A stretch of DNA of 64,000 nucleotides from Hyaloperonospora brassicae. Lineage: Eukaryota > Oomycota > Peronosporomycetes > Peronosporales > Peronosporaceae. Shown one piece after another: positions 7,980-60,073 of the stretch; position 1 is the stretch's first letter; every line of letters starts with the position of its first letter. Location: the NCBI GenBank assembly GCA_947650285.1, contig CANTFL010001229.1, forward strand, positions 43,927-107,926, in the 5' to 3' direction. The notes beneath the pieces are model-generated. The model was not told the DNA's origin, did not search any database, and saw only the letters and a list, made by a program, of their open reading frames with translations. Made by a program: the position numbers and the translations under genes.

Positions 7980-7990
7980 CTCCCACTCAC
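7980..7990 (-). other. Polypurine tract
   Basis: GTGAGTGGGAG on the minus strand directly before the 3' LTR, where the plus-strand primer of an LTR element should be. It overlaps the stop codon of the polyprotein. Confidence 0.55.
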
Positions 7991-10900
7991 TGTTGATGCT
8001 CGGGTCCATCACGTACCTTGATGTCCATTCCGGCACGGAGGTACTGGAATCGCTTGGTGCCGAGTGCCTTCGTTAGTATGTCGGCAAGTTGATGTTCCGT
8101 CTCCTTGTAGATCACCTTTATATCACCGGCCAGAACTTTCTCTCGGACAAAGTGGTGACGTATGTCTACGTGTTTAGTCCGCGCATGGTATCCTGGGTTT
8201 GTTGCGAGAGCAATGGCTCCTTGATTATCCTCGTAGATGACAGTAGGATTCTTCTGCTCGAATCCGAGGTCAGCCATTAACATCCTTGCCCATAGTATGT
8301 CTTGAGTGCACATGCTTAGCGCCATGTATTCAGCCTCAGAAGTACTCAATGCAACGGTGCGTTGGTACTTAGACTTAAATATAACAGGGCCTCCATTAAG
8401 CACCAGCAAAACACCAGATACCGATCGACGGTCGTCCAAGCTGTTTCCCCAATCGGCGTCACTATACGCTGTTAGTTGTTGCTGTCGTTTGTCAACACTG
8501 TAGTGTAATCCAAAACCACTCGTCGAGCGGAGGTATCTTAGCACTTTGATCAGTGCCTTCCAGTGTTGTGAGCCAGGGTTTTCTGCAAATCGTCCAAGTT
8601 GGCTCACAGGAAATGCTGCGTCTGGTCTGGTCGTGGTCACTATAAACAGCAGTCGTCCCAGCAATTGGCGGTACGGTGTACGACTCATGGCTTGTCTTTC
8701 GACATCGGACTTTGGACTGTTTGCGCTGGACAGTTTCATGCTCTGATCACATGGGTTACCAGTTGGTCGGGCTTGAGTCTGTCCAAACATGTCTGCAGTC
8801 TCCTCGATGTATCTTTGTTGCGAAATAAACATCTCACGCTTCTTTCGGTCGTACATAACTTCCATTCCAAGCAAGTGCTTCACTGGACCAAGGTCTTTGG
8901 TTTGAAACCGCTGAGAGATTTGTTCTTTCACCTTGCGTACCGTGGTTGCTTCTTTTGCAGCCACAATCATATCATCAACGTATAAGCACACGTACGCCCA
9001 GCCTTCACCAACCTTTATCTTGTATATGCATCGATCAGCACCGCACGCGACAAATCCCATCTCCAGTAATGCATTGTCTTCCAACAAGAGCTGAACAGGT
9101 TGCTCAATTGGTAGCATTTCATCAACACCTCCTCGTGGTCCGGATTCACTTCTCCCACTGGCATCGTCAGTAAGAACACGATACTGATGCTCGCGACCGG
9201 AACGACGCTTAAGTTGTGGACGGAACACCATCGCTCCAGAGTCGTGCGGATTGTGTAATTCGAGTTCTTGGTGACGAGGTCCTTGTTGAATTACTTGGGA
9301 AGTGTGTTGATGTTGTTCGTTGTTCATATTTCTTGCAAGATAATGATTGCTTGTCTCACTCGAAGGTGTGTTACTGATGTCATTGTCAGAACTCGGTACT
9401 TCCATCTCCACATCTTCGACAATTTCGTGCTCTTCCATTTCAACATCTTCATCACCATCTTGTTGCAAGTTACTTGGTTGATCTCCATCATCGTCATCTT
9501 GTCGTATTATTATCATCTTCGGGTGTGGTACAACCGGATTGTCTTCGTAAATGTTACTAACTTCACGTTCATCTAACGCGATCGAACGACTGATCTTGAT
9601 CGTACCAGTCTCCAGATCAAGCACCCTGTAACCCTTGGTGTGTCTTGCATATCCTAACAGCATGCAGCGAAACCCTTTCGCGTCGAATTTCGTGCGCTTT
9701 GAGTCATCGATATGTGCGTATCCAAGTGAACCAAATACACGTAGGTGAGAAATTTCGGGCTTCGTCTTAAAGCACAGTTCAAAAGGAGTCTTCTCCTCGT
9801 GATTGCAGTTCGTGGTTCTGTTAAGTAAATCCACCGCCGTATTCACAGCTTCGGCCCACCACTTCTTTGCCACCCGCTTGTAATGCATCATGCTTCTGGC
9901 CGTCTCAACAATCGTACGGTTCATCCGTTCAGCAACACCGTTTTGTTGAGGACTGTAGGGTACTGTCTTCTGATGGATGATGCCGTGTTTCTTGCAGTAC
10001 GAAGCAAACCTCTTGTTTTTGTATTCACCGCCATTGTCAGTACGTATGGCCTTAATACGAAATCCACACTGCTGCTCCATCTCGGTCCGAAATTCAATGA
10101 ACTTCGACAGTACTTCACTCTTGGACTTCAGAAAATATACAGTCACTAATCTTGAAAAATCGTCCACGAGAGACAATACGTATCGTGACCCACCAGGAGT
10201 TGGGTTCTTCATAGGACCCATGACGTCAGAGTGAATAAGCTGCAGTGGCTGCGTTGTCTTTGTCTTCGACTCTTGTGGAAAACTCGCGACACACAGTTTC
10301 CCTTGTAGACACCCTCCACATAAATTCTTGTTCGTGTCAGGTACTACATTCGGTAGTCCTTCCGTAGCCTCCTTTGTCTTTTTAAACTTGTTGTGGCTAA
10401 TGTGACCCATTCGTGCATGCCACAGCTCCCACTTGTTACCAGCGTCTTCATGTTCTACCAACATCGCGTGCTCATACTCCACATCAAGAGTGTACACGTT
10501 TCTCATGCGCTTCGCAGAAATCATCAACACATTATCCTTGTAGATACCGCAGTATTTTTCACCGAATCGAACGTTGTACCCACGCTGGACGATCTTGGGC
10601 ACCGCTAGTAGTCGTCTGTCCAGCGTTGGAATGTGCAATACTTCATTCACAGTCACTGCTGTACCATTCGTACAGCGAAATCGAATGCTTCCTCGTCCAA
10701 TTGCATTCATGACCGCACCATCGGCAACGCGAACTTGAATGGCTTCTCTCAATTTCTCGTACTCAAAGAAATCTTCTTCGGCTGAGGTCATATGTGACGA
10801 GGCGCCGCTGTTTAACAACCATCCTTTTTTTAATCCGTTTGTGGCCGTGAATGCCATTTCATTTCCATCATTCTTGGTGGCAGATCGGCACTCAAACTGC

Positions 10901-11598
10901 TTGTGTCCGATCTTGTTACAGCGGTGACACTTCCCACGAAACGGCTGTTTCTTCTTCCAGCTCTCTTCTGCACCACGTTGTTTGCGTATTCCACGACCAC
11001 GATCCTGTTTATGGCCTCCACGACCAACGCGGAAAGCTCCTTCGGAGACCTCTTGCTGCTGCTTCTTCTTGTGTTCCTTCAACAGCTTTTCTTTCACGTC
11101 CACCATCGTCACACCCATGGAATTCTCAATGATGGACACAATCATCTCGTACTCTGCCGGTAAGCTACTCAGCAGAACTGTCATCTGGCGTGCGTCGTCC
11201 ATGGTATCGCCCACCGCCTCCATACTCAAAACAAGTTCATCGAAACGGTCGAGGTGGCTCACCATGTCGCCTCCCTCATCCATACGAAATTCGTGCAATC
11301 GACGTGTCAGTGCCACTCGATTCTGAAGGTTTGTCTTGTTGTAGTAGTCGCGTAGTGTTTCCCATGCTTCCTTCGCAGTGCGAGCATGTCGGATCTTCGT
11401 CTGATGCTTTACTTCGATCCCTTGAGCAATAATAGCAAACGCCTTCATGTCCTTGACCTTCCAATCCTCCGTCATCTCCTGCTCCGACTTCACTTCCAAG
11501 ATGTGCTCTAGCAGGCCCTTCCTCGCAAGTGTCATCTTCATATTGAATTCCCAATGGAAGTAGTTGTCTGTTCCAAGCAGGTCATCGGGTTTCTTCAT
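7987..11598 (-). CDS. Copia Gag-Pol polyprotein, internally deleted
   Basis: 1,203 residues in one frame, shorter than the roughly 1,300-1,400 usual for Copia. Gag (UBN2-type) spans about 1-200. A CCHC zinc knuckle is at 224-237. The protease motif reads LNSGASSHM at 262-270, where the catalytic Asp is replaced by Asn 263 (codon at 10810-10812, explained by one G-to-A change). The integrase zinc site (H393, H399, C427, C430) and the catalytic D458, D521, E557 are present. A long acidic linker follows. The text then passes from a linker ending near residue 832 straight into the segment just before the YVDD box (873-876), so about 150 residues holding the first catalytic Asp of reverse transcriptase are missing without loss of frame. 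RNase H motifs (SDADW, STSEAEY, EDNQGA, TKHVDI) are intact. Expected to be catalytically dead for reverse transcription. Confidence 0.95.
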   Translation of the reverse strand: MKKPDDLLGTDNYFHWEFNMKMTLARKGLLEHILEVKSEQEMTEDWKVKDMKAFAIIAQGIEVKHQTKIRHARTAKEAWETLRDYYNKTNLQNRVALTRRLHEFRMDEGGDMVSHLDRFDELVLSMEAVGDTMDDARQMTVLLSSLPAEYEMIVSIIENSMGVTMVDVKEKLLKEHKKKQQQEVSEGAFRVGRGGHKQDRGRGIRKQRGAEESWKKKQPFRGKCHRCNKIGHKQFECRSATKNDGNEMAFTATNGLKKGWLLNSGASSHMTSAEEDFFEYEKLREAIQVRVADGAVMNAIGRGSIRFRCTNGTAVTVNEVLHIPTLDRRLLAVPKIVQRGYNVRFGEKYCGIYKDNVLMISAKRMRNVYTLDVEYEHAMLVEHEDAGNKWELWHARMGHISHNKFKKTKEATEGLPNVVPDTNKNLCGGCLQGKLCVASFPQESKTKTTQPLQLIHSDVMGPMKNPTPGGSRYVLSLVDDFSRLVTVYFLKSKSEVLSKFIEFRTEMEQQCGFRIKAIRTDNGGEYKNKRFASYCKKHGIIHQKTVPYSPQQNGVAERMNRTIVETARSMMHYKRVAKKWWAEAVNTAVDLLNRTTNCNHEEKTPFELCFKTKPEISHLRVFGSLGYAHIDDSKRTKFDAKGFRCMLLGYARHTKGYRVLDLETGTIKISRSIALDEREVSNIYEDNPVVPHPKMIIIRQDDDDGDQPSNLQQDGDEDVEMEEHEIVEDVEMEVPSSDNDISNTPSSETSNHYLARNMNNEQHQHTSQVIQQGPRHQELELHNPHDSGAMVFRPQLKRRSGREHQYRVLTDDASGRSESGPRGGVDEMLPIEQPVQLLLEDNALLEMGFVACGADRCIYKIKVGEGWAYVCLYVDDMIVAAKEATTVRKVKEQISQRFQTKDLGPVKHLLGMEVMYDRKKREMFISQQRYIEETADMFGQTQARPTGNPCDQSMKLSSANSPKSDVERQAMSRTPYRQLLGRLLFIVTTTRPDAAFPVSQLGRFAENPGSQHWKALIKVLRYLRSTSGFGLHYSVDKRQQQLTAYSDADWGNSLDDRRSVSGVLLVLNGGPVIFKSKYQRTVALSTSEAEYMALSMCTQDILWARMLMADLGFEQKNPTVIYEDNQGAIALATNPGYHARTKHVDIRHHFVREKVLAGDIKVIYKETEHQLADILTKALGTKRFQYLRAGMDIKVRDGPEHQQ

Positions 11599-43127: not shown

Positions 43128-44738
43128 CTAAGATTCGGGACGAGGAACAGGACAACAAGGAGGCACTCTCGTATTACCAAAGAGCTGGTAAGACGAACAA
43201 GTGCTGGCAGTAGCGAACAGTTGACATCCTATTTGCGCTACCGTTTGCAGCAATCGAGTGTGCCTAGAATCGACGTCTTGGCACCTTTGTCTCCTGATCT
43301 GGTGTTGCGCAGCTTTGTGTCCGCTGATTGATCTGCCATAGCCGTCAGCCAGTCATTCAGTATCAATGTTTTGCTTGACGGCGTGCAGGTACCAGTCGTC
43401 GAAAAGGCTCTGTTGGAACGTACAATGTGCAATCGCACTTACATTTCGAGCGCAATCGCAACAAGATGAGCCCCTTACACGACGTTGACAGTGAATGGAA
43501 TGTCAATGTGAGGCAGTAACAAACCCGCACCAATATTGCTTGAAGGGGTAATAGGAGACGAACGGAAAGCTCAAAAGCAATATTTGTTGTGGCTGACAGC
43601 ACGCTGCTCATTTGCTGATAGCTCGACAGGTCAAAGCTAGGGGGGTACTGGTCAGACGTATTATGACTGTTATGGCCGTTTCGACTGTTATGGTCGTTTT
43701 GCCTCTGCATAACAACTGACTTTTCACCTGTCGGACATGTCAACCGTTTACACTCATTCGCTTGCAGTTCACAGCATAACATCTCCACTTTTCATGCTCG
43801 CCTCACTTCGCAGCGTTGATGATCTGATAATTATTTACGGCCAGTCTGCTCGATTACAATGCGACGTGCAGTAACAAAATGTACCTCCCTCGTGTATTCC
43901 AGCTTGGCAGATTCCGAATAGGAGTCGGGACTCTAAGTTCGCTCGCCGAGACACTGTGACAAACGTCAAGCCATGTGGGAAGCATCCATGCTGTCTATCG
44001 TCGATATGACAACCATCTTTCGACATTCAAAGCGACTTTTGCTTCATCTATCTTTCTGGCTGCATGGCCTTGTGCTCCGATCATAGGAGCCACATTGTTC
44101 ACGTGGGCCTCATCATTGCTCTTGCATGAGTTTGCGCTACCGTGCTTACTTTGAGCAGAGGTAGCGCTTCGATTCAGATTTGTCGAAGATAATGACCTAG
44201 CGAATCGCTTCATGACATACATCGATCGCGGACCAACGTTAGCAATGATATCGAGTATGTGCAAGATCAGTCGGCTACTAGACACTGCGCACGTCAACTG
44301 CCCAAGCGCCTCATCTGCCCGTCCATGATATATGTAGCCGTGCATCCGTCCTTTTTGTCTCTGCTTCAACGAGTTCGTAATTGGTAAGTTCAAGATTAGA
44401 TCACCGTGTCATCTGCTCGCTTCAACAATCATCGCAGCTGATCTTTCACCGGTATACGATGCGTAGCACTGCGCCATTACCGGTTCTAGTGCTGTCTTTC
44501 GATCTCACAACCGCGCGTCCAGCAATCCTTCGAGACCAGCTATCCTCCGTGTATGAAGATAGAACGATCTGTTGCCTCGTCTCTAACACGCTCCGTGGGT
44601 TCTCATTTGCTCTCTCTTTTGACGCGTCTCTCGTCCTCTCCTCCCCCCGTCTCTCGTCCCCTTCCACCCCCAGTCCATCGCGACTCTTTCCGGCAAGTGC
44701 GCATTTTCCATTCCGCACTGCAAACGGAAACGAACGCC
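43128..44738. other. Intergenic, no supported gene
   Basis: Short frames only, plus the promoter and leader of the FHA-CHAT gene. An in-frame upstream extension (44553-44738) is Ser/Pro-rich and lies over the initiator, so it is taken as untranslated. Confidence 0.45.
44698..44716 (+). promoter_or_regulatory. Oomycete-type initiator (Inr+FPR) element
   Basis: GCGCATTTTCCATTCC departs at few positions from the known oomycete core promoter consensus GCTCATTYYNCAWTTT. It lies about 25-40 bp before the ATG at 44739, the usual distance from a transcription start. It supports that ATG as the true start. Confidence 0.6.
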
Positions 44739-47459
44739 ATGGGCGACGACGAACGCGCGTGCACCGGCGTCTTTTCCGCGGCGTCTGCACCTCGACGGCC
44801 CTTCGCAGACGACGGTCCACCACACCCGGACGCTCCTTGCAGCAGCCTCGCCCCGCTCGACGAACGTCCGTCGGCTCCACTTCGCGCGCTGTGGGCTCCA
44901 GCCGTGCGAACCGCTTCGTCCAGCGCGCCTTCCGTGCTGCAACTGCTCGCCGCCGACACGGCTGGATCCCGGACAACGACGTCTGTCCCGTCTACGTCCG
45001 CAAATGTCCGCAGCGCGCGGAATCTGGGACAAGAGCCGGGCCGGCACGCGCCCAGCTACGTACCGAACAAACGCCTGAAACGGTCCGTGCACTTGTTTTC
45101 AGAAACAAGTGGAGAAGCAGTGGGTGACCGCGCCGCGCTCTGCAGCAGCAGCAGCAGCTTCGAACACGACGACAACGACTGCGACAGCGACCATGAGGCG
45201 CGCGACGCGCAGCTGGAAGTGTGGCGCGAAGACTCGCAGCAGCGCATGGAGGTCATGAGCATCTCGCAGCAAAACACGCAAGAGTGCACGCAAACGACCG
45301 TCGGCGACAGCTCGTCGTCGAGTCTCGTGGTGCGCCTCGTGCTGCACCCGGACGTAGACAAAGTCGTGACGGCGTTCCAGAAGAATGCGCTCGAGCAGCA
45401 CGGACTGTACCGTATTGACCTGCAGCTGACGACGCCGTGTGTCAAGTTGGGGCGGGAAGAGTTCCTCGGGATCTTTGACAAGAAAACGTCGGCCGTGGAC
45501 CCCGTGAAGCTGAGCCGGACGCACTGTCTCTTGGAGACGGCCGTGGACCCGGCAACCCACTGCCACGCGGGGTTTATCACTGATCGCAGCACGAATGGCA
45601 TCAAACTGGACGGCGTGCCAGTCGAAAAGGACACGCGGCACAAGCTCGTGGACGGACAGACGATTACGCTCTTGTCGTCGCGTCAGGGCAACGTGCTGCT
45701 GGGGTACGTCGTGGAAGATCCACACGTGCGAGGCGCGCACGAAGACAGTAGCAGTAGTGGCACGAAGAGCACGCAACGAGCTGGTCTGGACGAGGCTGGA
45801 CAGAAGGACCAGTCCAGTCGACAGCGACCCCATGTCCAGGAGTACACGCTCGGCGTGCTGTTTGCCGCGCCACTCGTGGGCAAAGACGTGCAGGGCAAGT
45901 ACCACCCAATCGCGGAGCTCGATGTCAAGCGCGAGTACTCGATACTACAAACGAGTCTTATGGACGCGGCTACGTTTGCCAAAGGACCGACGATTACTAC
46001 TACCAGCGACAGGGACGATGCTGCATTGGGTCGCACGGACGCGGACGGGGCGTTGTCCAGGACGTATCAGTGCTCGCGGCAGATCCACGTGGTCGCCAAG
46101 TTTGCCAACACGGACACGTTTCGAGCCATGATCACGCTTGGATGCCGAGCACTTCACTTTTCAGGCCACGGGGACGAGAATCACTTGTACTTTGAAGACG
46201 GCATGGGATTGGTCCATCCGATTCCTCACACAGGACTGCAGGAGCTGTTTTTGGCAGGAGGCGGGAGCGACGAGTCGACACTGCGTCTAGTGTTTGTTTC
46301 AGCGTGCTCGTCGGCACCGCTGGCACATGCTTTTGTCTCGTGTGGCATCCCGCACGTTATCGGCGTGCGCTCGAACGAGAAGATTGAAGACTACGCTGCG
46401 ATCGAGTTCACGCGCGCGTTTTACCTGGCCCTTGCAACTGGCAAGTCTGTCGGAGCCAGTTTTACCATTGCGCAGCAATCGGTTGCCAAGTCACCGAACA
46501 TTCGACGACCGCTCACTGTCGCGGATAAATTCGTACTCTATCCGGAAGATGGCGACCACTCGGAGGTTATTTTTCCGTTGGTTGCTGTGGAGTCGACGAA
46601 GGGTACGGTTGATCTGGTGCCGGTAAAGTCCAAACGGTACCCGACGTTGTGGTTCGATGACATGCCAGCGCGGTGTCAAGGATTCTGCAGTCGCTCTATT
46701 GAAGTGTACAAGATCAGTCTTGCTTTGATGATGACGCAGTTTCGTATCACACGCCTTGTGACGATCTGCGGCGAGGAAGGTGTGGGGAAGACGGCAGTCG
46801 CTCACGCTGTAGCCAATTACGTCGGACCGCGCATTACTTCAGAGGGAGGTGTGCGCATCTTTTCGGTTGCAAAGCTTGCCCAAGACGAAATGGATGAGCA
46901 CGTGGGTATGATGCGGCGAAACATCAACATTGGTAACGGTAGATGCCGCGTGCTGAATCGGTTAGAGACGATGGTGGTGGACCATATAAAGCAACACAAG
47001 GCCCGAATCGAGTTCAACAGTCAGCACATGCTCATGGTCATCGACGGCTGTGATTATCTCTTGCGCAATGACGCTCGCCGCGACCGCTTTCGCACTTTCT
47101 TGTCCGAGATACTGACGAATAACGGGTTGCTGAAGATTGTGCTGACGGCAAGAACGTCCATTTGTACGGACGGCGCTGTCCGCGGCCATGGAGAGCGACT
47201 CTACACGCTATCAAAGTTTGACATGAAGAGCGCGACCATGATGTTGGTGAGTCTTATGAGTCGGCCTATTCGTGTTGAAGAGCTGGACCACGCGCGTCTG
47301 CCTTCTACCACGGACAAGTTGGAGCTCATCGCTTCGCACCCGGTCTTGCGAGCGACGAGGGGTATTCCCAAACGTATAGCTGACCTTGCTGGCAGGCTTA
47401 ACGAGACAACTATGGACAAAATTGCTGTCGACGAGACTGTGTTGGATCTCACGGAATAA
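44739..47459 (+). CDS. FHA-CHAT-STAND NTPase protein (caspase-like)
   Basis: 906 residues in a single exon; the start is chosen by its Kozak-like context (CGCCATGG) and the initiator upstream. Residues 1-195 are Ser/Ala-rich and probably disordered. FHA domain about 230-325: GRE 238-240, SRTH 259-262, STNG 284-287, the residues that contact phosphothreonine in this fold. CHAT protease domain about 365-600: catalytic His in HFSGHG (H477) and catalytic Cys in VSAC (C523), followed by the IPHVIGVR and FTRAFYLALATGKS motifs of CHAT proteins. STAND/NB-ARC-like NTPase about 640-890: P-loop GEEGVGKT 678-685, Walker B MLMVIDGCD 764-772, sensor VLTART 801-806, and a GIP motif at 875-877 like the GLPL of NB-ARC. 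No LRR, WD40 or TPR follows. Predicted role: a nucleotide-gated, phosphopeptide-sensing protease switch, by analogy with separase/caspase-fold CHAT enzymes and NLRs. Substrate unknown. Confidence 0.88.
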   Translation: MGDDERACTGVFSAASAPRRPFADDGPPHPDAPCSSLAPLDERPSAPLRALWAPAVRTASSSAPSVLQLLAADTAGSRTTTSVPSTSANVRSARNLGQEPGRHAPSYVPNKRLKRSVHLFSETSGEAVGDRAALCSSSSSFEHDDNDCDSDHEARDAQLEVWREDSQQRMEVMSISQQNTQECTQTTVGDSSSSSLVVRLVLHPDVDKVVTAFQKNALEQHGLYRIDLQLTTPCVKLGREEFLGIFDKKTSAVDPVKLSRTHCLLETAVDPATHCHAGFITDRSTNGIKLDGVPVEKDTRHKLVDGQTITLLSSRQGNVLLGYVVEDPHVRGAHEDSSSSGTKSTQRAGLDEAGQKDQSSRQRPHVQEYTLGVLFAAPLVGKDVQGKYHPIAELDVKREYSILQTSLMDAATFAKGPTITTTSDRDDAALGRTDADGALSRTYQCSRQIHVVAKFANTDTFRAMITLGCRALHFSGHGDENHLYFEDGMGLVHPIPHTGLQELFLAGGGSDESTLRLVFVSACSSAPLAHAFVSCGIPHVIGVRSNEKIEDYAAIEFTRAFYLALATGKSVGASFTIAQQSVAKSPNIRRPLTVADKFVLYPEDGDHSEVIFPLVAVESTKGTVDLVPVKSKRYPTLWFDDMPARCQGFCSRSIEVYKISLALMMTQFRITRLVTICGEEGVGKTAVAHAVANYVGPRITSEGGVRIFSVAKLAQDEMDEHVGMMRRNINIGNGRCRVLNRLETMVVDHIKQHKARIEFNSQHMLMVIDGCDYLLRNDARRDRFRTFLSEILTNNGLLKIVLTARTSICTDGAVRGHGERLYTLSKFDMKSATMMLVSLMSRPIRVEELDHARLPSTTDKLELIASHPVLRATRGIPKRIADLAGRLNETTMDKIAVDETVLDLTE

Positions 47460-50814: not shown

Positions 50815-53800
50815 ATGGCCGAGAAGGACGAGCACGTGGGCGTCGGCCTCTCGTCCACGGGCCACTTTGACCAGGATATCTACGGCACGACAACCAGCAC
50901 CAGCACTAGTGGCAGCACCAGTGGCAGCAGCAGCGCTCGCTTTGCAGGCTACAGCTCCACTGTCGTGGACGAGGGAGACGACAGCGCCGACACCCCATTG
51001 GACCAGGACGCGCACCCGCCGTCGACTCGGACGCTGTCGGCCCCTTCTCTCGCCGCGCAGAAGAGTGATGGGCTGATCGACGACAGCGTCGACCCGTTTG
51101 TCGAGGCGCGGGCCTCTGCTGCTGGATCTGCACAGCTCCGTGGGACGCGCATTGTGGACCGCGAGAACGCGTACCGCAAGCGCCGCTTTGACCGGCTGCT
51201 GTCGCCCGAACGGGGCGACGCGTTCGGCGATGACACGCCCGTGCGCAGCTACAAGGAGATCATGCAGACGCAGCAGCTGGAACAGGAGCGCGCCGACGTG
51301 GTGCGGCAGATCCAGCGCAAGCAGAAGGAGCAAGACGAGCAGGACAAGCCGCAGAAGGGGCTGCAGGACGAGCAGGAGACGGACGCGACGCCGAAACGAC
51401 GGCGGAAGCGGATGCGCTGGGACCAAGAAGCGCCTGTCGTCGGTGACGAGCCGAGAGCAGAGGGCGAAGAGGGCCGTGTGTCAGAGTGGGACGCGCCGGC
51501 GTCGGCGGACACTGCAGACGCTGCAACGCCGACACGGACGTCGTCGAGATGGGATGCGACGCCGGTCACTGGCGCGGCTGCTGGTGCCGCAGCGACGCCA
51601 GGACGAAAGAATCGATGGGACGAAACGCCGGTCGCGAGCTCTGGCGGGTCGAAATGGGACGCTACGCCTGTGAACGTGGGTGGCGTGACGCCTGCAGGGA
51701 CAGGAAAGCGATCGCGATGGGACGAGACGCCAGTCCCGGGCGTGAACGACTTGACGCCGGGTAAACAGGGACAGCTCACACCTGGCGCGTCGATGACGGA
51801 CATTATGACTGGCTCGTTGACACCCGAGCTGGCGCAGCGCATGCGCTGGGAGCGCGAGATTGAGGAGCGAAATCGTCCGTTGACCGACGAGGAACTCGAT
51901 GCGTTGTTTCCTGCAACGGGGTACAAAGTTCTGGATCCTCCCGCGTCCTACGTGCCTATTCGAACACCATCACGGAAGCTGCTTACTACGCCTACACCAA
52001 TGGGCCAGACACCAGGCTTTGCTATGCAAGCTACGCCAGCGCGTGAGGATTATGGCGTGCCGATTGGAACACCATCGGGTGGTGATGGTAGCTCTATGCC
52101 GTTTATCAAGCCGGAAGATTATCAATACTTTGGCAAGCTGATGGACGAAGTGAATGAAGAAGAACTGGACCCTGAGGCTGCCAGGGAGCGTAAAATTATG
52201 CGTTTGCTGCTAAGGATCAAGAATGGTACTCCGCCGCAGCGGAAGACTGCACTGCGACAGCTCACCGATAAGGCCCGTGATTTTGGCGCTGGTGCGCTGT
52301 TTAACCAGATTCTGCCGTTGCTTATGGCACCCACTCTCGAAGACCAGGAACGCCACTTGCTGGTGAAGGTGATTGATCGTGTGCTTTACAAGCTCGACGA
52401 CCTTGTGCGTCCGTACGTGCACAAGATCCTGGTGGTGATTGAGCCACTGTTGATTGATGAGGACTATTACGCTCGTGTCGAAGGCCGCGAGATCATATCG
52501 AACCTCGCCAAGGCCGCTGGTCTTGCTACGATGATTTCTACCATGCGTCCAGATATCGATATCGACGACGAGTACGTTCGCAATACGACGGCTCGCGCCT
52601 TTGCTGTGGTTGCTTCAGCGTTGGGCATTCCTGCGTTGCTGCCATTCCTGAAGGCTGTCTGCCAGTCGCGCAAGTCATGGCAAGCCCGACACACGGGTAT
52701 AAAGATCGTGCAGCAGGTTGCGATCTTGATGGGCTGCGCTGTGTTGCCGCATTTGAAACATCTTGTTGAGATCATTGAGCATGGGCTTGAGGATGAACAG
52801 AAGGTGCGCACTATCACAGCGCTCGCCCTGGCTGCACTTGCCGAAGCTGCACACCCTTACGGTATCGAGTCATTCGACTCCGTCCTGCGACCGTTATGGC
52901 GTGGTACCCGCAAACACCATGGCAAAGGTCTAGCAGCGTTTCTGAAGGCGATTGGGTTCATCATTCCTCTCATGGATGCCCAGTATGCAAACTATTACAC
53001 AGTGGAAGTAATGGAGATCTTGATTCGTGAGTTTCAGTCGCCGGATGAGGAAATGAAGAAGATCGTGCTAAAAGTGGTGAAGCAGTGTGTGTCGACGGAC
53101 GGCGTGGAAGCATCGTATATCAAAGAGAAGATTCTGCCTGAGTTTTTCCGGCACTTCTGGGTGCGCCGCATGGCGTTGGACCGACGAAACTACCGGCAAC
53201 TAGTGGAGACAACAGTTGAGCTGGCAAATAACGTTGGTGCGAGTGAGATTATATCACGGGTTGTCGACGACTTGAAGGACGAAAGCGAACCGTACCGTCG
53301 CATGGTGATGGAAGCAATTCAGAAGGTTATTTCGAACTTGGGTGCGACTGATATTGGCACGGATCTCGAAGAAAAGCTTATCGATGGTATTTTGTATGCG
53401 TTCCAAGAGCAAACGTCAGATGATACGTTCGTTATGCTGGATGGATTCGGCATTGTGGTGAATGCTCTGGGTATTCGTGCGAAGAACTATTTGCCGCAGA
53501 TCTGTGGCACAATAAAATGGCGGCTGAACAACAAGCCAGCAAAGGTGCGCATGCAGGCAGCTGATTTGATCAATCGCATAGCTGTGGTCATGAAGACGTG
53601 CGATCAAGAGCCACTGATGGGGCATATGGGTGTGGTCCTGTATGAGTACCTCGGTGAAGAGTACCCCGAGGTGCTGGGTAGCATTCTGGGTGCACTCAAG
53701 GCCATTGTGAATGTGATTGGTATGAACAAGATGACACCGCCGATCAAGGATCTGCTGCCACGTCTGACGCCAATCCTCAAGAACCGACACGAGAAGGTCC

Positions 53801-55074
53801 AGGAGAACTGCATCGCCGAAGGAACGTTGGTCGCCATGGCTGATGGCACGTCCAAGTCCATCGAACACCTTGTCGAAGGTGACCCCGTGATGAGTCCTCG
53901 CGTTGCCGAGGGCAATACTGTGGTAGCAGACTTGGACGCGACGTGCACACGTGTCCTTGACAATGGGAAGCGTGAATGCGTGGAGCTAAAACTCGAGGAT
54001 GGCCGCGAGCTTGTCTGCACACCAGACCACCGATTGTTGCGCTTTGATGGACAATGGCAAGCGGCAGGAGATGTTCCAATTGGCGATCAAATATCTGTCG
54101 CAGTGCATGAGAAGACCCACAAGGTAGCGCCGTATGGGCTTAGCGTGAAGGTAGCTGGACTACGTGTTACTCAGCGACGCAACGTCGGTGCCAAGCGGGT
54201 CTTCGACCTGACTGTTCCCGGCAACGACGCATTTTTCGCGGCTGGCGTTGCTGTTCACAACTGTATCGATTTGGTTGGTCGTATCGCCGACCGCGGTGCT
54301 GATTTGGTGTCGGCCCGTGAGTGGATGCGTATCTGCTTCGAGCTACTGGACATGCTGAAAGCGCACAAGAAGGGCATTCGTCGTGCCGCTGTGAACACGT
54401 TCGGCTATATTGCCAAGGCTATTGGGCCACAGGATGTGTTGCACACCTTGCTGAACAATTTGAAAGTGCAAGAACGACAGAACCGCGTGTGCACGACAGT
54501 GGCCATTGCTATCGTCGCTGAGACGTGCTCACCGTTCACTGTCGTTCCAGCTTTGATGAACGAGTACCGCGTGCCAGAGTTGAACGTGCAGAATGGCGTG
54601 CTGAAGGCATTCTCGTTCATGTTCGAGTACATCGGCGAGATGGGCAAGGACTATATCTACGCGGTGGCACCGCTGTTGCAAGACGCGCTAATGGACCGTG
54701 ACCTGGTGCATCGCCAGACCGCGTGCACAACGGTGAAACATTTGGCGCTGGGTGTAACTGGTTTGGGCTGCGAGGATGCGCTGGTGCACCTGCTGAACTT
54801 TGTATGGCCCAACATTTTCGAGACGTCTCCGCATGTGATCAACGCCGTGTTTGAAGCTGTGGAAGGCTGTCGCGTGGCGCTAGGTCCGCACGTGATCTTG
54901 CAGTATGTTTTACAAGGTCTATTTCACCCGGCGCGTCGCGTGCGCGAAGTGTACTGGAAGATCTACAACTCGCTGTACATGTACGCGCAGGATGGTTTGA
55001 CGCCTGCTTATCCGATGCTCGAGGACGACGGTGTGAATGCGTACAACCGCACGTACCTGGAACTTGTCATCTAG
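50815..55074 (+). CDS. SF3B1: Splicing factor SF3B1 (U2 snRNP), intein-containing precursor
   Basis: 1,419 codons in one exon, which leaves 1,268 residues after removal of a 151-residue intein (human SF3B1 has 1,304). SF3B1 clamps the branch-site helix in the U2 snRNP. The N-terminus [16 protein letters not shown] matches the family start. Residues about 195-345 hold five RWD/KWD motifs followed by TP, the ULM sites that bind U2AF-homology domains. [15 protein letters not shown]...FPATGY is the p14-binding region. HEAT repeats fill about 430-1419 and are strongly conserved, including DEQKVRT (cancer hotspot region in human) and [15 protein letters not shown], whose Lys, Arg and Val line the branch-adenosine/pladienolide pocket. 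At ENC/IDLVGR the frame is interrupted, without stop, by residues 999-1149. The mature protein needs this removed, as the insert splits a HEAT repeat. Confidence 0.97.
53809..54261 (+). other. Mini-intein in SF3B1 (Hint domain, no endonuclease)
   Basis: 151 residues, SF3B1 precursor 999-1149. Block A is [13 protein letters not shown] with the nucleophile Cys1. Block B is [10 protein letters not shown] with Thr71 and His74 (TxxH). Block F is [11 protein letters not shown]. Block G is VAVHN followed by host Cys+1. All residues of class 1 splicing (Cys1, TxxH, penultimate His, terminal Asn, Cys+1) are present, so self-excision is expected and the flanking sequences join to give the normal ENCIDLVGR. 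The length is that of a minimal Hint domain; no LAGLIDADG or other nuclease domain is inserted, so it cannot home by itself. It is a type of protein-level mobile element; base composition looks like the host gene, which suggests long residence or adaptation. Confidence 0.95.
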
Positions 55075-55990: not shown

Positions 55991-58900
55991 TCATGTCGCT
56001 GCAAACGGCTTCGACGTCGGGATGTGAGGCAACGACTCATCTTCGTCCGATCCAGAGGACGATGACGAATTGCTCGGATACAGCGCGTAGGCCGTCAGCA
56101 GATCGTGGTCACTCAGCACGGAGTGGAGGCGGGCTAGAGCGGGGTTGGCGCTCACTGGCAGCGACAACCAGTGCGCGTGCTGAGCTGTCGAGAGCATGTC
56201 ACCAAACGTCTGTCGCTCCACAACGACTTGTACCGCTGAGTCCCGCGTGAAGCGCACCTGTTGCACCTCCTCGATCGTCGCCTCTTGGATAACCTTATCC
56301 GCCTCGGCAGTCTCACCCACCTCGTTCGTCGCCACTTCTTCCGACTCTTCTTCTTTTGCACTTGTCACCATCTCTTCGACCTCTTCACCTACTTGAGCGC
56401 ACCCGTCATCCTCGTTCAAGTGCACAACGTCATCTGGTTCCGCTGTCGCACGGGCCTCGTTAATAAAAGTGAGAGCCACCTCTACTTCCTTCACACTGCT
56501 GCTCGTTGTCCCTTTCTCGGCCTCCTCCGTAGTGTCAAATGCCTCCGATATTTCCACTGTTTCTGTCTCAGTTTTCCGGTCAGTGACCACCTCCGTCTGT
56601 TCGACCTCGTCTTTCGAAACCGTCTCGAACACCGCGGCAGCCTCCTCCGTGTGGTCCGTGCTCTCGGTCACTTCGGTCACATCGGTCTTCCTCACGACCT
56701 CCTCAGTGACTACAGTCTTCTTACTCTCAGTCTGCTTGACTTCGGTCTCCTTGGCCTCAGCCTGCTTGACTTCAGTTTTCAAAGCGACATCGATGTCTGC
56801 AGCCGCTTCCACCTTGGCAGCTTCTGGTGCCTCCAACTCCACACGCACAGCCGTCTCCTCGTCCACGTCAGTAATCTCAGTTTCCTCCACTTTCGTTGCC
56901 ACTTCGAGTAGATCGGTCCCTTCCGTCATCTCCTCCATCTTTGCGGCTTCCTCGGCCTCTTCAGCCTTCGTCTCTCCGATCTCGGCCGTCTCCACATCAC
57001 CCATCTTGGCCTCCTCGACCTTCGAAGCCTCTTCTGCCTTTTCGTCTGCCCCTGTCACTTCGGCATCACTCGCCACATTTTCTGCGTCATTGGTGTCCGA
57101 TGCAACACCAATTTCCTTGATCAAGTCGGTATCGTCCATTTTCTCAATCACGGCCACTTCGGTATCTTCGGCCACACTGAGTTGTTCCCCACCCTTCTTC
57201 ATCATCTCAGATTCCGCAGCCACATCAGTCCATGAGCTCACCTCAGTGTCTGAGACAACCTCGATCGGTGAAGTCACCTCCGCCCCTCTGGTTGCTTCAT
57301 CTTCCGAGTCCAGACTAGAGTCCTTGGACACAAGCTCCTTGGCACTCTCGCTCTCATCGACATCAACGACTCCTTCAGCCCCCTCCTTAGTCACCTTTGT
57401 CGCCTCGATATCCTTCCTCTCATCAGCTTCGGATTCCATTTCCATCTCTTTGGCCGCCTCAGTCTCTTTTGTCTGATGGACCACCGTGCTGTCACCGACA
57501 GCCTCAATATCAGCTGAATGGCTGGCCTTCTTCGATTCAGCTCTCTCCAATGCCCACGACGTTACTCTCATCAGTTTCTGTTTCTCGATCACCGCTTGTG
57601 TCTCAAGCTCGCTCTTCTTTTGCTTTTCTATCGCCTCCAATTTCGCCTTCTCAGTCGCGACGCGGATACTCACCTCACTCTCCGGTACGATAAAGGTATC
57701 GATCGTCCGAACGGCAGGACTAGCAGCTTGCATTCGCTGTTCCATTGACTCAAACTTTGCCTTCTCAGCGGATACATGGACGCTTGCGTCACTTTCTGGT
57801 ACAATGTAAGTGTCGATGGTACGGACACCTGCCGCCTTGACGAGCTTGTCAGGGGCCTCAAGCTTAGCCTTTTCTGCGGACACACGGACACTTGCTTCGT
57901 TCTCTGGCACAATGAAATTGTCAATCGTTCGTACAGTCGCTTTGGTTTGTTTTCCTGGCATCTCGTACTTTGCCTTCTCAGCCGATACACAAACACTTGC
58001 TTCGCTCTCGGGGACGATGAAAGCATCGATTGTCCGCTTGATAGCCTTGACCGGTTTTTCTAGCGTTTCAAGTTTCGCCTTTTCCGCGGATACGCGAACG
58101 CTGGCTTCACTCGTGGGGACAATGAAAGTATCAATGGTTCGCTTAGTAGGAGCTGATGTCTTGACCTGATTCTCATATCTGGCCTTCTCCGCAGACACAC
58201 GAACACTAGCCTCGCTATCTGCGACGATGAAAGTGTCAATGGTGCGCACGGGAGCGGTGACAACTGAGTTTGCACGCTTCGTCTCGAAGCGATGAGCTAT
58301 ACCTCGGACACCCGAACTGTCGGCTGCAGTGATCGTGCGACGGCGAGAGTGGGCCTCCGGAGTAGGACCAGCCCTACTGACGGCCGTCTTATCAGGTTCA
58401 GTCGGTGAGCTAGACGTGTCAACCGTGACAGGTGTCCCCTGCCCAGCTGCTTCCGCTGCGAGATGCTCGTCCGTCGCAATCTCGTTCGGACTTTGCTTTC
58501 GAGACTTGTGGACTTCATCCGTGGCCATACGTTTCACACCCGTTTCTTCGGCTTTCTTGGCCGTTTGTTTCTCCTTTTCCAGTGCTTCGTATTTCTGCTT
58601 CTCCGCACCAACGTGAATGCTCTTTTCAGTAGGAAAGAAGCTACGAACCGTGCGAAACGAAAGCTTATCCAGCGACTGGTCTGCCTTCTTCTCAAAGCGA
58701 CTGGCCATATTCCGCACGCTCGACATTGCAGAGCTCTTTCTGGACGCTGGGCTTTGCTTCATAGCAGGTGACTTGAGTGGATCCTTTGCTTCCACTTCTT
58801 CCTTCGCACGCTGCACCATCTGCGAATTGTATTTCTCCGCTTCATGGCTGACAGATATACTTCGTCCTTTCTCCGAGAAAAAATCGCGTTTCGTTCGAAT

Positions 58901-60073
58901 CTTGAGACTCTCCAAGGCGTTCTCTTCTTCATCATGCGCTTCAAGGCGGTGCACCACGTTCTTTACCGGTAACGATCCACTGGCGTCCAATTGTGCAGCC
59001 GACAGCGTACGGTGAGTTTGCGGCGACACTGGTTCATGAGCTTCAAATTCATGCACGATGCTCTCGACCGGCAAGGATGCATTCAGCTCTAGCTCTACTG
59101 CCGGATCGGCGCATTGGACCTCTTTCTTTGTCGTGACTTTGCTAGCCAAGCGCGATATCATGGACGACAGCCGCGTTGGCGACGTCTTTTTCGAACGCAC
59201 AGAGCTCTGTATCGGCTCGTCGGCTTCAGTCACGTCTGCAGAAGGAACCGACGCTTGTTTGCAAGCCTCCGTTTCGATTCCGATCAACGTCGTGTCATCG
59301 GCACCGGCACATACAGGCCGTGCACTATCCAAATCACCAGCTGCTTCGTGTTTCGTGATCTCGTTTTCTTGTGCACTTTCTTTCTCACAAGTCACGTCAG
59401 CAGTCTGTTCATCTACCACCGCAATCAATTCAGCCGTCGCCGTCGTCGTCGTCGTCGCACTCTCAGCACCTTCGTGTTCCAAGAGTCTCTTCGCCTCAAC
59501 CACTTGCTCACTACCGTCGTCCTCCTGCATCTCCGTACTTTCATCCATCGCGTACACAGCAACGCTATACTTGGCTGCTTCACTCTCTTCCCCAGCTCGA
59601 TCGTCCGTCTCCAAACTCTCTCTGTCCACAGAACTCGCCAACGTCGCAGCCACCGAATCGTCCACGTCCACGTGCGCACTCGCACTCGCTGCGATCGTCT
59701 CACTGATCGACTCGACAGTCGCTGCACTGATACGGACGCTAGCAGCCGCATCCACCAGCCCCTCGGATACCTGATGCTCTCCAACTGTCGTCTCCATCCC
59801 ACTCTCTCCAACTGTATCGACACCAGCAGCATCGCATCCCCCGGATACCTGATGCTCGCCAACTGTCGTCACCCTCTCTCCAACTGTCGTCACCTGAACC
59901 CCACCCCAACCCTCACGTCCAGGGTGCTCTTCAACTGTCGTAATTATCACAGTCTCTCCAACTGTCGTGGGACTTATCGCCTCCACTCGGCAACTCGCGT
60001 CGTCTTCGTGTCCCTCTGCTGCCGCTCTTGTCGGTCGCTTGTCCTGTGCGTCCGATAGCGCCACATCTGTCAT
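55991..60073 (-). CDS. Large acidic repeat protein, unknown family
   Basis: 1,360 residues in one uninterrupted frame; I do not recognise a family. Four zones. (1) About 30-105: TTVGE and TTVGEHQVS motifs repeated. (2) About 290-390: basic and Ser-rich with RFE/RLE motifs. (3) About 394-820: eight repeats of roughly 35-45 residues, consensus RTIDTFIVPESEASVRVSAE then KAKYE or KAKLE; the first two copies are divergent (TKRDFF, TVRSFF), the last six nearly alike. Short xxHRFExK or SRFEKK motifs precede copies. (4) About 820-1270: Glu/Thr/Val/Ala-rich, strongly acidic, probably coiled coil or disordered, with TEV and EEA runs. The C-terminal 90 residues are more ordered (FGDMLSTAQHAHWLSLPVS). 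No signal peptide, no membrane segment. A cytoskeletal or scaffold role is only a guess from the heptad-like KAK(Y/L)E repeats. Confidence 0.75.
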   Translation of the reverse strand: MTDVALSDAQDKRPTRAAAEGHEDDASCRVEAISPTTVGETVIITTVEEHPGREGWGGVQVTTVGERVTTVGEHQVSGGCDAAGVDTVGESGMETTVGEHQVSEGLVDAAASVRISAATVESISETIAASASAHVDVDDSVAATLASSVDRESLETDDRAGEESEAAKYSVAVYAMDESTEMQEDDGSEQVVEAKRLLEHEGAESATTTTTATAELIAVVDEQTADVTCEKESAQENEITKHEAAGDLDSARPVCAGADDTTLIGIETEACKQASVPSADVTEADEPIQSSVRSKKTSPTRLSSMISRLASKVTTKKEVQCADPAVELELNASLPVESIVHEFEAHEPVSPQTHRTLSAAQLDASGSLPVKNVVHRLEAHDEEENALESLKIRTKRDFFSEKGRSISVSHEAEKYNSQMVQRAKEEVEAKDPLKSPAMKQSPASRKSSAMSSVRNMASRFEKKADQSLDKLSFRTVRSFFPTEKSIHVGAEKQKYEALEKEKQTAKKAEETGVKRMATDEVHKSRKQSPNEIATDEHLAAEAAGQGTPVTVDTSSSPTEPDKTAVSRAGPTPEAHSRRRTITAADSSGVRGIAHRFETKRANSVVTAPVRTIDTFIVADSEASVRVSAEKARYENQVKTSAPTKRTIDTFIVPTSEASVRVSAEKAKLETLEKPVKAIKRTIDAFIVPESEASVCVSAEKAKYEMPGKQTKATVRTIDNFIVPENEASVRVSAEKAKLEAPDKLVKAAGVRTIDTYIVPESDASVHVSAEKAKFESMEQRMQAASPAVRTIDTFIVPESEVSIRVATEKAKLEAIEKQKKSELETQAVIEKQKLMRVTSWALERAESKKASHSADIEAVGDSTVVHQTKETEAAKEMEMESEADERKDIEATKVTKEGAEGVVDVDESESAKELVSKDSSLDSEDEATRGAEVTSPIEVVSDTEVSSWTDVAAESEMMKKGGEQLSVAEDTEVAVIEKMDDTDLIKEIGVASDTNDAENVASDAEVTGADEKAEEASKVEEAKMGDVETAEIGETKAEEAEEAAKMEEMTEGTDLLEVATKVEETEITDVDEETAVRVELEAPEAAKVEAAADIDVALKTEVKQAEAKETEVKQTESKKTVVTEEVVRKTDVTEVTESTDHTEEAAAVFETVSKDEVEQTEVVTDRKTETETVEISEAFDTTEEAEKGTTSSSVKEVEVALTFINEARATAEPDDVVHLNEDDGCAQVGEEVEEMVTSAKEEESEEVATNEVGETAEADKVIQEATIEEVQQVRFTRDSAVQVVVERQTFGDMLSTAQHAHWLSLPVSANPALARLHSVLSDHDLLTAYALYPSNSSSSSGSDEDESLPHIPTSKPFAAT
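57611..58900 (-). repeat. Eight tandem coding repeats in the acidic protein
   Basis: Units of about 105-130 bp encode copies of the RTIDTFIVPESEASVRVSAE motif. Protein identity is high among the six C-terminal copies, and the linkers (15-20 residues) vary in length and sequence. Confidence 0.85.

Follow-up and report, generated by a model that had tools for sequence, protein, structure and literature searches.

The SF3B1 locus and its insert

The window, a stretch of 64,000 nucleotides, comes from Hyaloperonospora brassicae (assembly GCA_947650285.1, contig CANTFL010001229.1, positions 43,927–107,926 of the forward strand) and carries a gene for the splicing factor SF3B1, the ORF of which was identified by its match to PF08920 (Pfam search, E 1.3e-42). 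Human SF3B1 (5ife_C) was aligned with this ORF in two stretches (query residues 3–1000 and 1149–1418), and, apart from a terminal residue or two, the alignment omits the product of bases 53809–54261. The features of the gene are listed in Table 1. SF3B1 had one match in the 100.56 Mb, 898-contig assembly, in a search that scored its best candidates. Because the search was of this kind and the assembly may be incomplete, a second SF3B1 allele lacking the insert could conceivably exist.

Table 1. Coordinates, in the window, of the SF3B1 gene, its exteins and the landmarks of the predicted intein
Feature	Position	Strand	Remarks
SF3B1 gene	50815..55074	+	Single uninterrupted ORF of 1419 aa, intein included
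N-extein	50815..53808	+	998 aa, ending in ...EKVQEN
Mini-intein (predicted)	53809..54261	+	151 aa, CIAEGT...VAVHN; profiles over cut-off; present at this position in five further downy mildews
Cys1 codon, predicted first nucleophile	53809..53811	+	Invariant in the six SF3B1 inteins
Block B TPDH, intein residues 71–74	54019..54030	+	T71 and H74 invariant in the six
Variable linker, residues 99–111	54103..54141	+	From alignments; near the position of the long middle region of larger relatives
Block F FDLTV, residues 132–136	54202..54216	+	Asp133 invariant
Block G end, His150-Asn151	54256..54261	+	Invariant in the six
C-extein	54262..55071	+	270 aa; stop codon at 55072–55074
Cys+1 of the C-extein	54262..54264	+	Equivalent to human SF3B1 C1035, from alignments

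Three other long ORFs were noted in the window. The ORF at 44553–47459 (968 aa) has an unusual mix of domains, with CHAT and FHA over the cut-off and NACHT/AAA under it. A 1203-aa open frame on the reverse strand (7987–11598) encodes a Copia-type LTR retrotransposon polyprotein. Beyond the end of SF3B1, the large ORF that follows (55991–60073, opposite strand, 1360 aa) yielded no Pfam match at E <= 0.001.

The 453 bases of the insert are in frame and stop-free, with neither a stop nor a frame shift at either border. The first-pass annotation, made from the sequence of the window, had described an in-frame insert of 151 residues in SF3B1 at these coordinates, which proved to be exact, and all the landmarks it had named (Cys1, TPDH, FDLTV, His-Asn and the host Cys+1) are present. 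In the remaining forward frames there are 8 and 7 stops, and when 5000 first-order random 453-mers were generated with matching composition, 27 were open. The codon-usage score of the insert (−0.060) lies under those of all 23 overlapping extein pieces (0.025 to 0.192), which may indicate lower constraint or a foreign origin; its GC3 is 0.57 versus 0.66 for the extein, within the range of the extein pieces (0.50–0.85).

A search against Hint and intein profiles, which the annotation had proposed as a check, gave significant matches to PF14890 (Intein_splicing; E 1.1e-12, 48.5 bits for a cut-off of 35.8, profile positions 2–155 of 155) and to the NCBIfam models TIGR01445 (intein_Nterm; 36.8 bits, cut-off 24.5) and TIGR01443 (intein_Cterm; 23.2 bits, cut-off 15.6). 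The Hint, Vint, Hom_end_hint and Hint_2 models matched the insert weakly, each below its cut-off. All five Pfam families retrieved at E <= 1 were Hint or intein-splicing models, with no endonuclease domain among them, and the insert, at 151 aa and without a homing endonuclease domain, thus falls among the mini-inteins. The PDB sequence search aligned residues 1–151 with residues 1–139 of the Mycobacterium tuberculosis RecA mini-intein 2in0 (E 1.4e-9), and the RecA mini-inteins are the nearest solved structures by sequence, the PRP8 inteins in the PDB matching with E 0.073 or worse. The AlphaFold2 model of the intein was poor (pLDDT 43.1, alignment of 6 sequences), and in a model of the HEAT segment plus the intein (pLDDT 60.7) the intein part was also poorly folded. 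Foldseek gave no match at E <= 0.001 for the poor intein model, with some Hint or intein chains among the weak matches; for the precursor model, SF3B1/Hsh155 chains were best, followed by unrelated helical-repeat proteins.

Removal of the insert from the protein rebuilds the SF3B1 stretch ENCIDLVGR, as expected of a class 1 intein, which restores its host. It is extremely unlikely that the 453 bases are instead a spliceosomal intron removed from the RNA, or an assembly or gene-model artefact. In favour of an intron one could count 239 in-frame GT/GC-AG pairs within 150 nt of both borders; not one of them, however, restores SF3B1 exactly or comes within 15 nt of the two borders. When the 453-base removal was shifted by −8 to +8, the placements that keep the product never had GT-AG, GC-AG or AT-AC ends. 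Spliceosomal-intron identity was therefore rejected, such ends being absent at the insert borders, and the objection of an RNA intron, which the annotation had raised against its own reading, was not upheld, since the borders offer no usable splice sites. Both an intron and an artefact are also contradicted by the coding of an intein domain over the PF14890 cut-off and by the presence of the insert as protein sequence in five other species; that these downy-mildew proteins carry it at an identical position speaks against an accident of assembly.

Distribution and conservation of the insert and its site

The intein-region search of the full-length protein retrieved 123 proteins among 528 candidates, the best 120 of which were listed. 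The top five matches were downy-mildew SF3B1 proteins with the same intein at the identical site, from Peronospora matthiolae (86% identity over the searched region), Hyaloperonospora arabidopsidis (84%), Peronospora farinosa (80%), Peronospora belbahrii (78%) and Peronosclerospora sorghi (73%). The intein is therefore not peculiar to H. brassicae, a point on which the first-pass annotation needs correction; the comparison with other oomycete SF3B1 genes that it had suggested is what places the insert in these five species. Three of the five homologues (P0002, P0003, P0004) bear the UniRef label 'Hint domain-containing protein', so these sequences were already public.

A wider search for SF3B1, covering lengths of about 780–2483 aa, yielded 4017 proteins, and among the 120 listed, 5 have the intein and 115 do not. 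The intein-less SF3B1 proteins among the matches listed include those of Phytophthora (rubi, capsici, cactorum, infestans, citrophthora, ramorum and fragariaefolia), Nothophytophthora and the downy mildews Bremia lactucae and Plasmopara halstedii. No entry named Pseudoperonospora was found among the 120 listed of the 4017 proteins. A Closterium SF3B1 (P0133, 1676 aa) was considered as a possible carrier and rejected, because its last 900 residues resemble a gene model with repeated and intronic pieces.

By alignment count, the insertion site is an unbroken ENCIDLVGR in 109 of the 115 listed intein-less proteins and ENCVDLVGR in one. Alanine replaces the site cysteine in four (P0134, P0136, P0218 and P0135, Phytophthora ramorum and P. 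fragariaefolia among them), three of these reading ENAIDLVGR and one ENAVDLVGR, and P0165 has a 10-residue insertion at the site, which looks like a gene-model error and not an intein. The site is thus highly, but not strictly, conserved: the claim that removal of the insert rebuilds an invariant ENCIDLVGR was right about the rebuilding and too strong about the invariance. The +1 cysteine needed by the intein is absent from these few intein-less relatives, and the occurrence of alanine in 4 of the 115 proteins suggests that SF3B1 itself can probably do without this cysteine.

The insert falls between the equivalents of human N1034 and C1035 in the alignment to 5ife_C. Passages of PMC5458519 describe a pocket for the branch-point adenosine formed by HEAT repeats 15–17, with the resistance mutations K1071, R1074 and V1078 grouped around it. 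Human K1071, R1074, R1075 and V1078 correspond to K1186, R1189, R1190 and V1193 of the precursor, and the insert lies 36–43 residues upstream of K1071/R1074/V1078. Because it interrupts the HEAT repeats directly ahead of this pocket, the insert would presumably leave the unspliced precursor inactive, and unspliced SF3B1 could probably not build the pocket.

The six SF3B1 inteins have 150–151 aa each. Their pairwise identity is 71–95%, versus 97.2–99.9% for the last 800 extein residues (765 residues for the partial P. belbahrii protein). Cys1, Thr71, His74, Asp133, His150 and Asn151 are invariant, and the class 1 residues C1, T71PDH74, H150N151 and C+1 are found in all six. Invariant residues occupy 40 of the 52 block positions, which were assigned by hand, and 54 of the 99 positions elsewhere (Fisher p 0.008). 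An insert that evolves fast and nevertheless retains its frame and catalytic residues in all six is consistent with ongoing selection for splicing. The much faster evolution of the insert than of the extein would also fit the alternative that the intein has decayed and lost its splicing, and that SF3B1 works with it as an additional, tolerated domain. We consider this very unlikely, given that all six landmarks checked and the frame are retained in six species, that the insert splits a nine-residue stretch of which 109 of the 115 other listed SF3B1 proteins have an identical, unbroken copy, and that it stands so shortly ahead of the pocket residues.

Relatives and origin of the SF3B1 intein

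The intein tree was built from 63 segments chosen by hand among 204, with host groups assigned by hand from Pfam accessions and motifs. The six SF3B1 inteins formed one clade in this tree (support 99/98), within which the H. brassicae intein grouped with those of P. matthiolae and H. arabidopsidis (98/92). The same three species grouped together in the extein tree (100/100), which has 18 rows and omits the partial P. belbahrii sequence. The five intein-bearing rows were not recovered as one clade in the extein tree, but such a clade was not rejected (p-AU 0.452). The simplest reading is that the intein was inserted once, in an ancestor shared by Peronospora, Hyaloperonospora and Peronosclerospora, and, having presumably lost a homing endonuclease, was inherited vertically from there.

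By sequence, the nearest relatives outside SF3B1 are inteins of eukaryote-type metagenome proteins, such as MCM6, rather than those of PRP8. The best near-full-length relative among the matches listed is an MCM6 intein of 150 aa (P0008; 50% identity over 95%), for which a larger allele of 316 aa is found at the same MCM6 site (P0238). An SNF2-type ATPase with two larger inteins (P0007) had a better E-value (3.4e-45; 54% over 62%). A clade joining the SF3B1 and MCM6 inteins was absent from the tree and was not rejected (p-AU 0.277). Larger relatives have 300–790 aa, a few of them with PF14528 listed (P0085, P0090, P0273–P0275), and the longer alleles suggest that the SF3B1 intein may have lost a homing endonuclease. 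Bacterial aconitase inteins are numerous among the relatives.

Eukaryote-type metagenome proteins with inteins of the C1...HN/C pattern form a sizeable set (P0007–P0019, P0031, P0033, P0040, P0048, P0237–P0243), and some rows in it, such as P0016, are bacterial-type aconitases. The hosts, named from the listed Pfam accessions or from motifs, are presumably MCM6, a PP1-like phosphatase with two inteins, an EF-hand protein resembling PP2A B'' and an SNF2 ATPase with two inteins; we also take PTEN, myosin, RasGEF, kinesin, a kinase and a proteasome-type ATPase to be among them. These sequences suggest that there may be uncultured eukaryotes with many nuclear inteins.

No close viral source was found among the 12 loci from a pattern-limited scan of viral contigs, in which the single whole-intein match had 28% identity and short pieces reached 67%. 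Nor was a close phage source found among the 25 loci of a likewise pattern-limited scan, all with less than 60% identity; of the 8 shown, the best had 38.8% over 63%. The scan of genome contigs gave four distant bacterial loci (31–45%). Transfer from a PRP8 intein is not supported by similarity (E 0.073 for PRP8 versus 1.4e-9 for RecA).

Within the H. brassicae assembly, where the best candidates were scored, no other intein was found, the intein protein, PF14890 and TIGR01445 each matching the SF3B1 locus only. PRP8 was located by PF08083 on another contig (C856), with no intein-search match there. As no intein was matched outside SF3B1, PRP8 appears to be intein-free in this assembly.

Predicted protein splicing and comparison with known inteins

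Taken together, the analysis makes it highly probable that the segment is a class 1 mini-intein in the only SF3B1 gene found, and that it excises itself, joining Asn998 to Cys1150 to yield normal SF3B1. Judged from sequence, this mini-intein is real, conserved and very probably active. Class 1 splicing starts with an acyl shift at Cys1; the chain is then transferred to Cys+1, asparagine cyclises with the aid of histidine, and an S-N shift completes the reaction. If the SF3B1 intein behaves like the class 1 inteins that have been tested, Cys1 would attack the Asn998-Cys1 bond (N-S shift), Cys1150 (Cys+1) would accept the N-extein, and Asn151 would cyclise with the help of His150, releasing the intein; a final S-N shift would join the exteins by a peptide bond. 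The TPDH motif (Thr71, His74) and Asp133 are predicted to assist.

A bacterial intein-like (BIL) or hedgehog-type Hint domain would cleave without ligation and leave two SF3B1 fragments. The weak matches to Hint, Vint and Hint_2, all below cut-off, could be read in this way, as could weak PDB matches to 6y75/6tmm (E 0.04), annotated as ADP-ribosyltransferase chains and described as Tetrahymena BIL domains. However, the intein-splicing, N-terminal and C-terminal intein models exceed their cut-offs, and joining the two flanks restores a stretch that is conserved in SF3B1. BIL domains typically have no nucleophile at +1, and identity as a BIL domain was rejected because Cys+1 is found in 6/6 SF3B1 inteins. 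Cleavage without ligation is therefore most improbable, and we retain the reading as a splicing mini-intein.

If there is a single SF3B1 gene, viability would depend on efficient splicing of the precursor, as predicted. Since only one SF3B1 copy was matched, it is reasonable to suppose that RNA splicing here would depend on protein splicing; organisms with PRP8 inteins already have such dependence, so it would not be new in principle. It is rather doubtful, though conceivable, that protein splicing of SF3B1 has a regulatory role and controls intron recognition genome-wide. Were this the case, a second spliceosomal protein besides PRP8 would be so controlled, and the control would act at the U2 step instead of the U5 step. 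The SF3B1 intein offers an independent test case for protein splicing acting on RNA splicing, an idea put forward in passages of PMC5784728. The intein is absent from the listed plant SF3B1 proteins, so its predicted splicing is a candidate target for selective inhibitors; selective inhibition of intein splicing has been proposed for PRP8 (PMC8529194, in the part available).

Among the papers listed from open-licence PMC, none names an SF3B1 intein, in line with the first-pass annotation, which knew of none; the available portions of PMC7765530 and PMC12702839 contain nothing on SF3B1 inteins. In excerpts, PMC5784728 places eukaryotic inteins in fungal nuclear genomes, algal chloroplasts and viruses, and PMC1635734 mentions nuclear inteins in Chlamydomonas and Dictyostelium, plus one in a viral relic of Phytophthora ramorum. 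A Hint annotation on a Peronospora transporter appears in a section of PMC10234565. The spliceosomal intein host treated in the available text of PMC6805012 and PMC8529194 is PRP8, and no other spliceosome protein is named there as a host. What is surprising is the host and the site: a second spliceosomal host, whose intein has no close sequence relationship to those of PRP8 and lies beside the pocket for the branch-point adenosine. It is also an example of a conserved nuclear mini-intein in an apparently working oomycete gene. A second such host raises the question of whether core proteins of the spliceosome are favoured as intein hosts.

The M. tuberculosis RecA mini-inteins (2in0, 5i0a, 5k08), the solved mini forms of which we take to be engineered deletions, resemble the SF3B1 intein in their end-to-end alignment, block order, Cys1, TPDH, FDL and HN, but their host is a bacterial protein. 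The MCM6 intein P0008 (larger allele P0238) is similar in its length of 150 aa and in the start of its C-extein, CID, whereas its host is a subunit of the replicative helicase on a metagenome contig. Bacterial aconitase (AcnA) inteins share about 37–52% identity over the matched, mostly N-terminal part; they differ in their length, mostly 509–527 aa, and 10 of them form a separate clade in the tree (99/92). The intein in the P. ramorum viral relic is an earlier case in an oomycete genome, but, as described in excerpts from PMC1635734, it lies in a degenerate viral gene and not in a working cellular gene.

The PRP8 inteins of fungi and other organisms are alike in being nuclear-encoded in a core protein of the spliceosome, in their Cys1 chemistry and in the existence of mini forms (PMC6805012 and PMC8529194, in part), and differ in their host and site. 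The name PRP8 is absent among the 120 listed of the 123 proteins from the intein search. Assignment to the PRP8 allele group was rejected, as the host is SF3B1 and PRP8 inteins rank far down the PDB match list. SF3B1 is thus a new intein host with a new intein allele, in a class of element that is already known.
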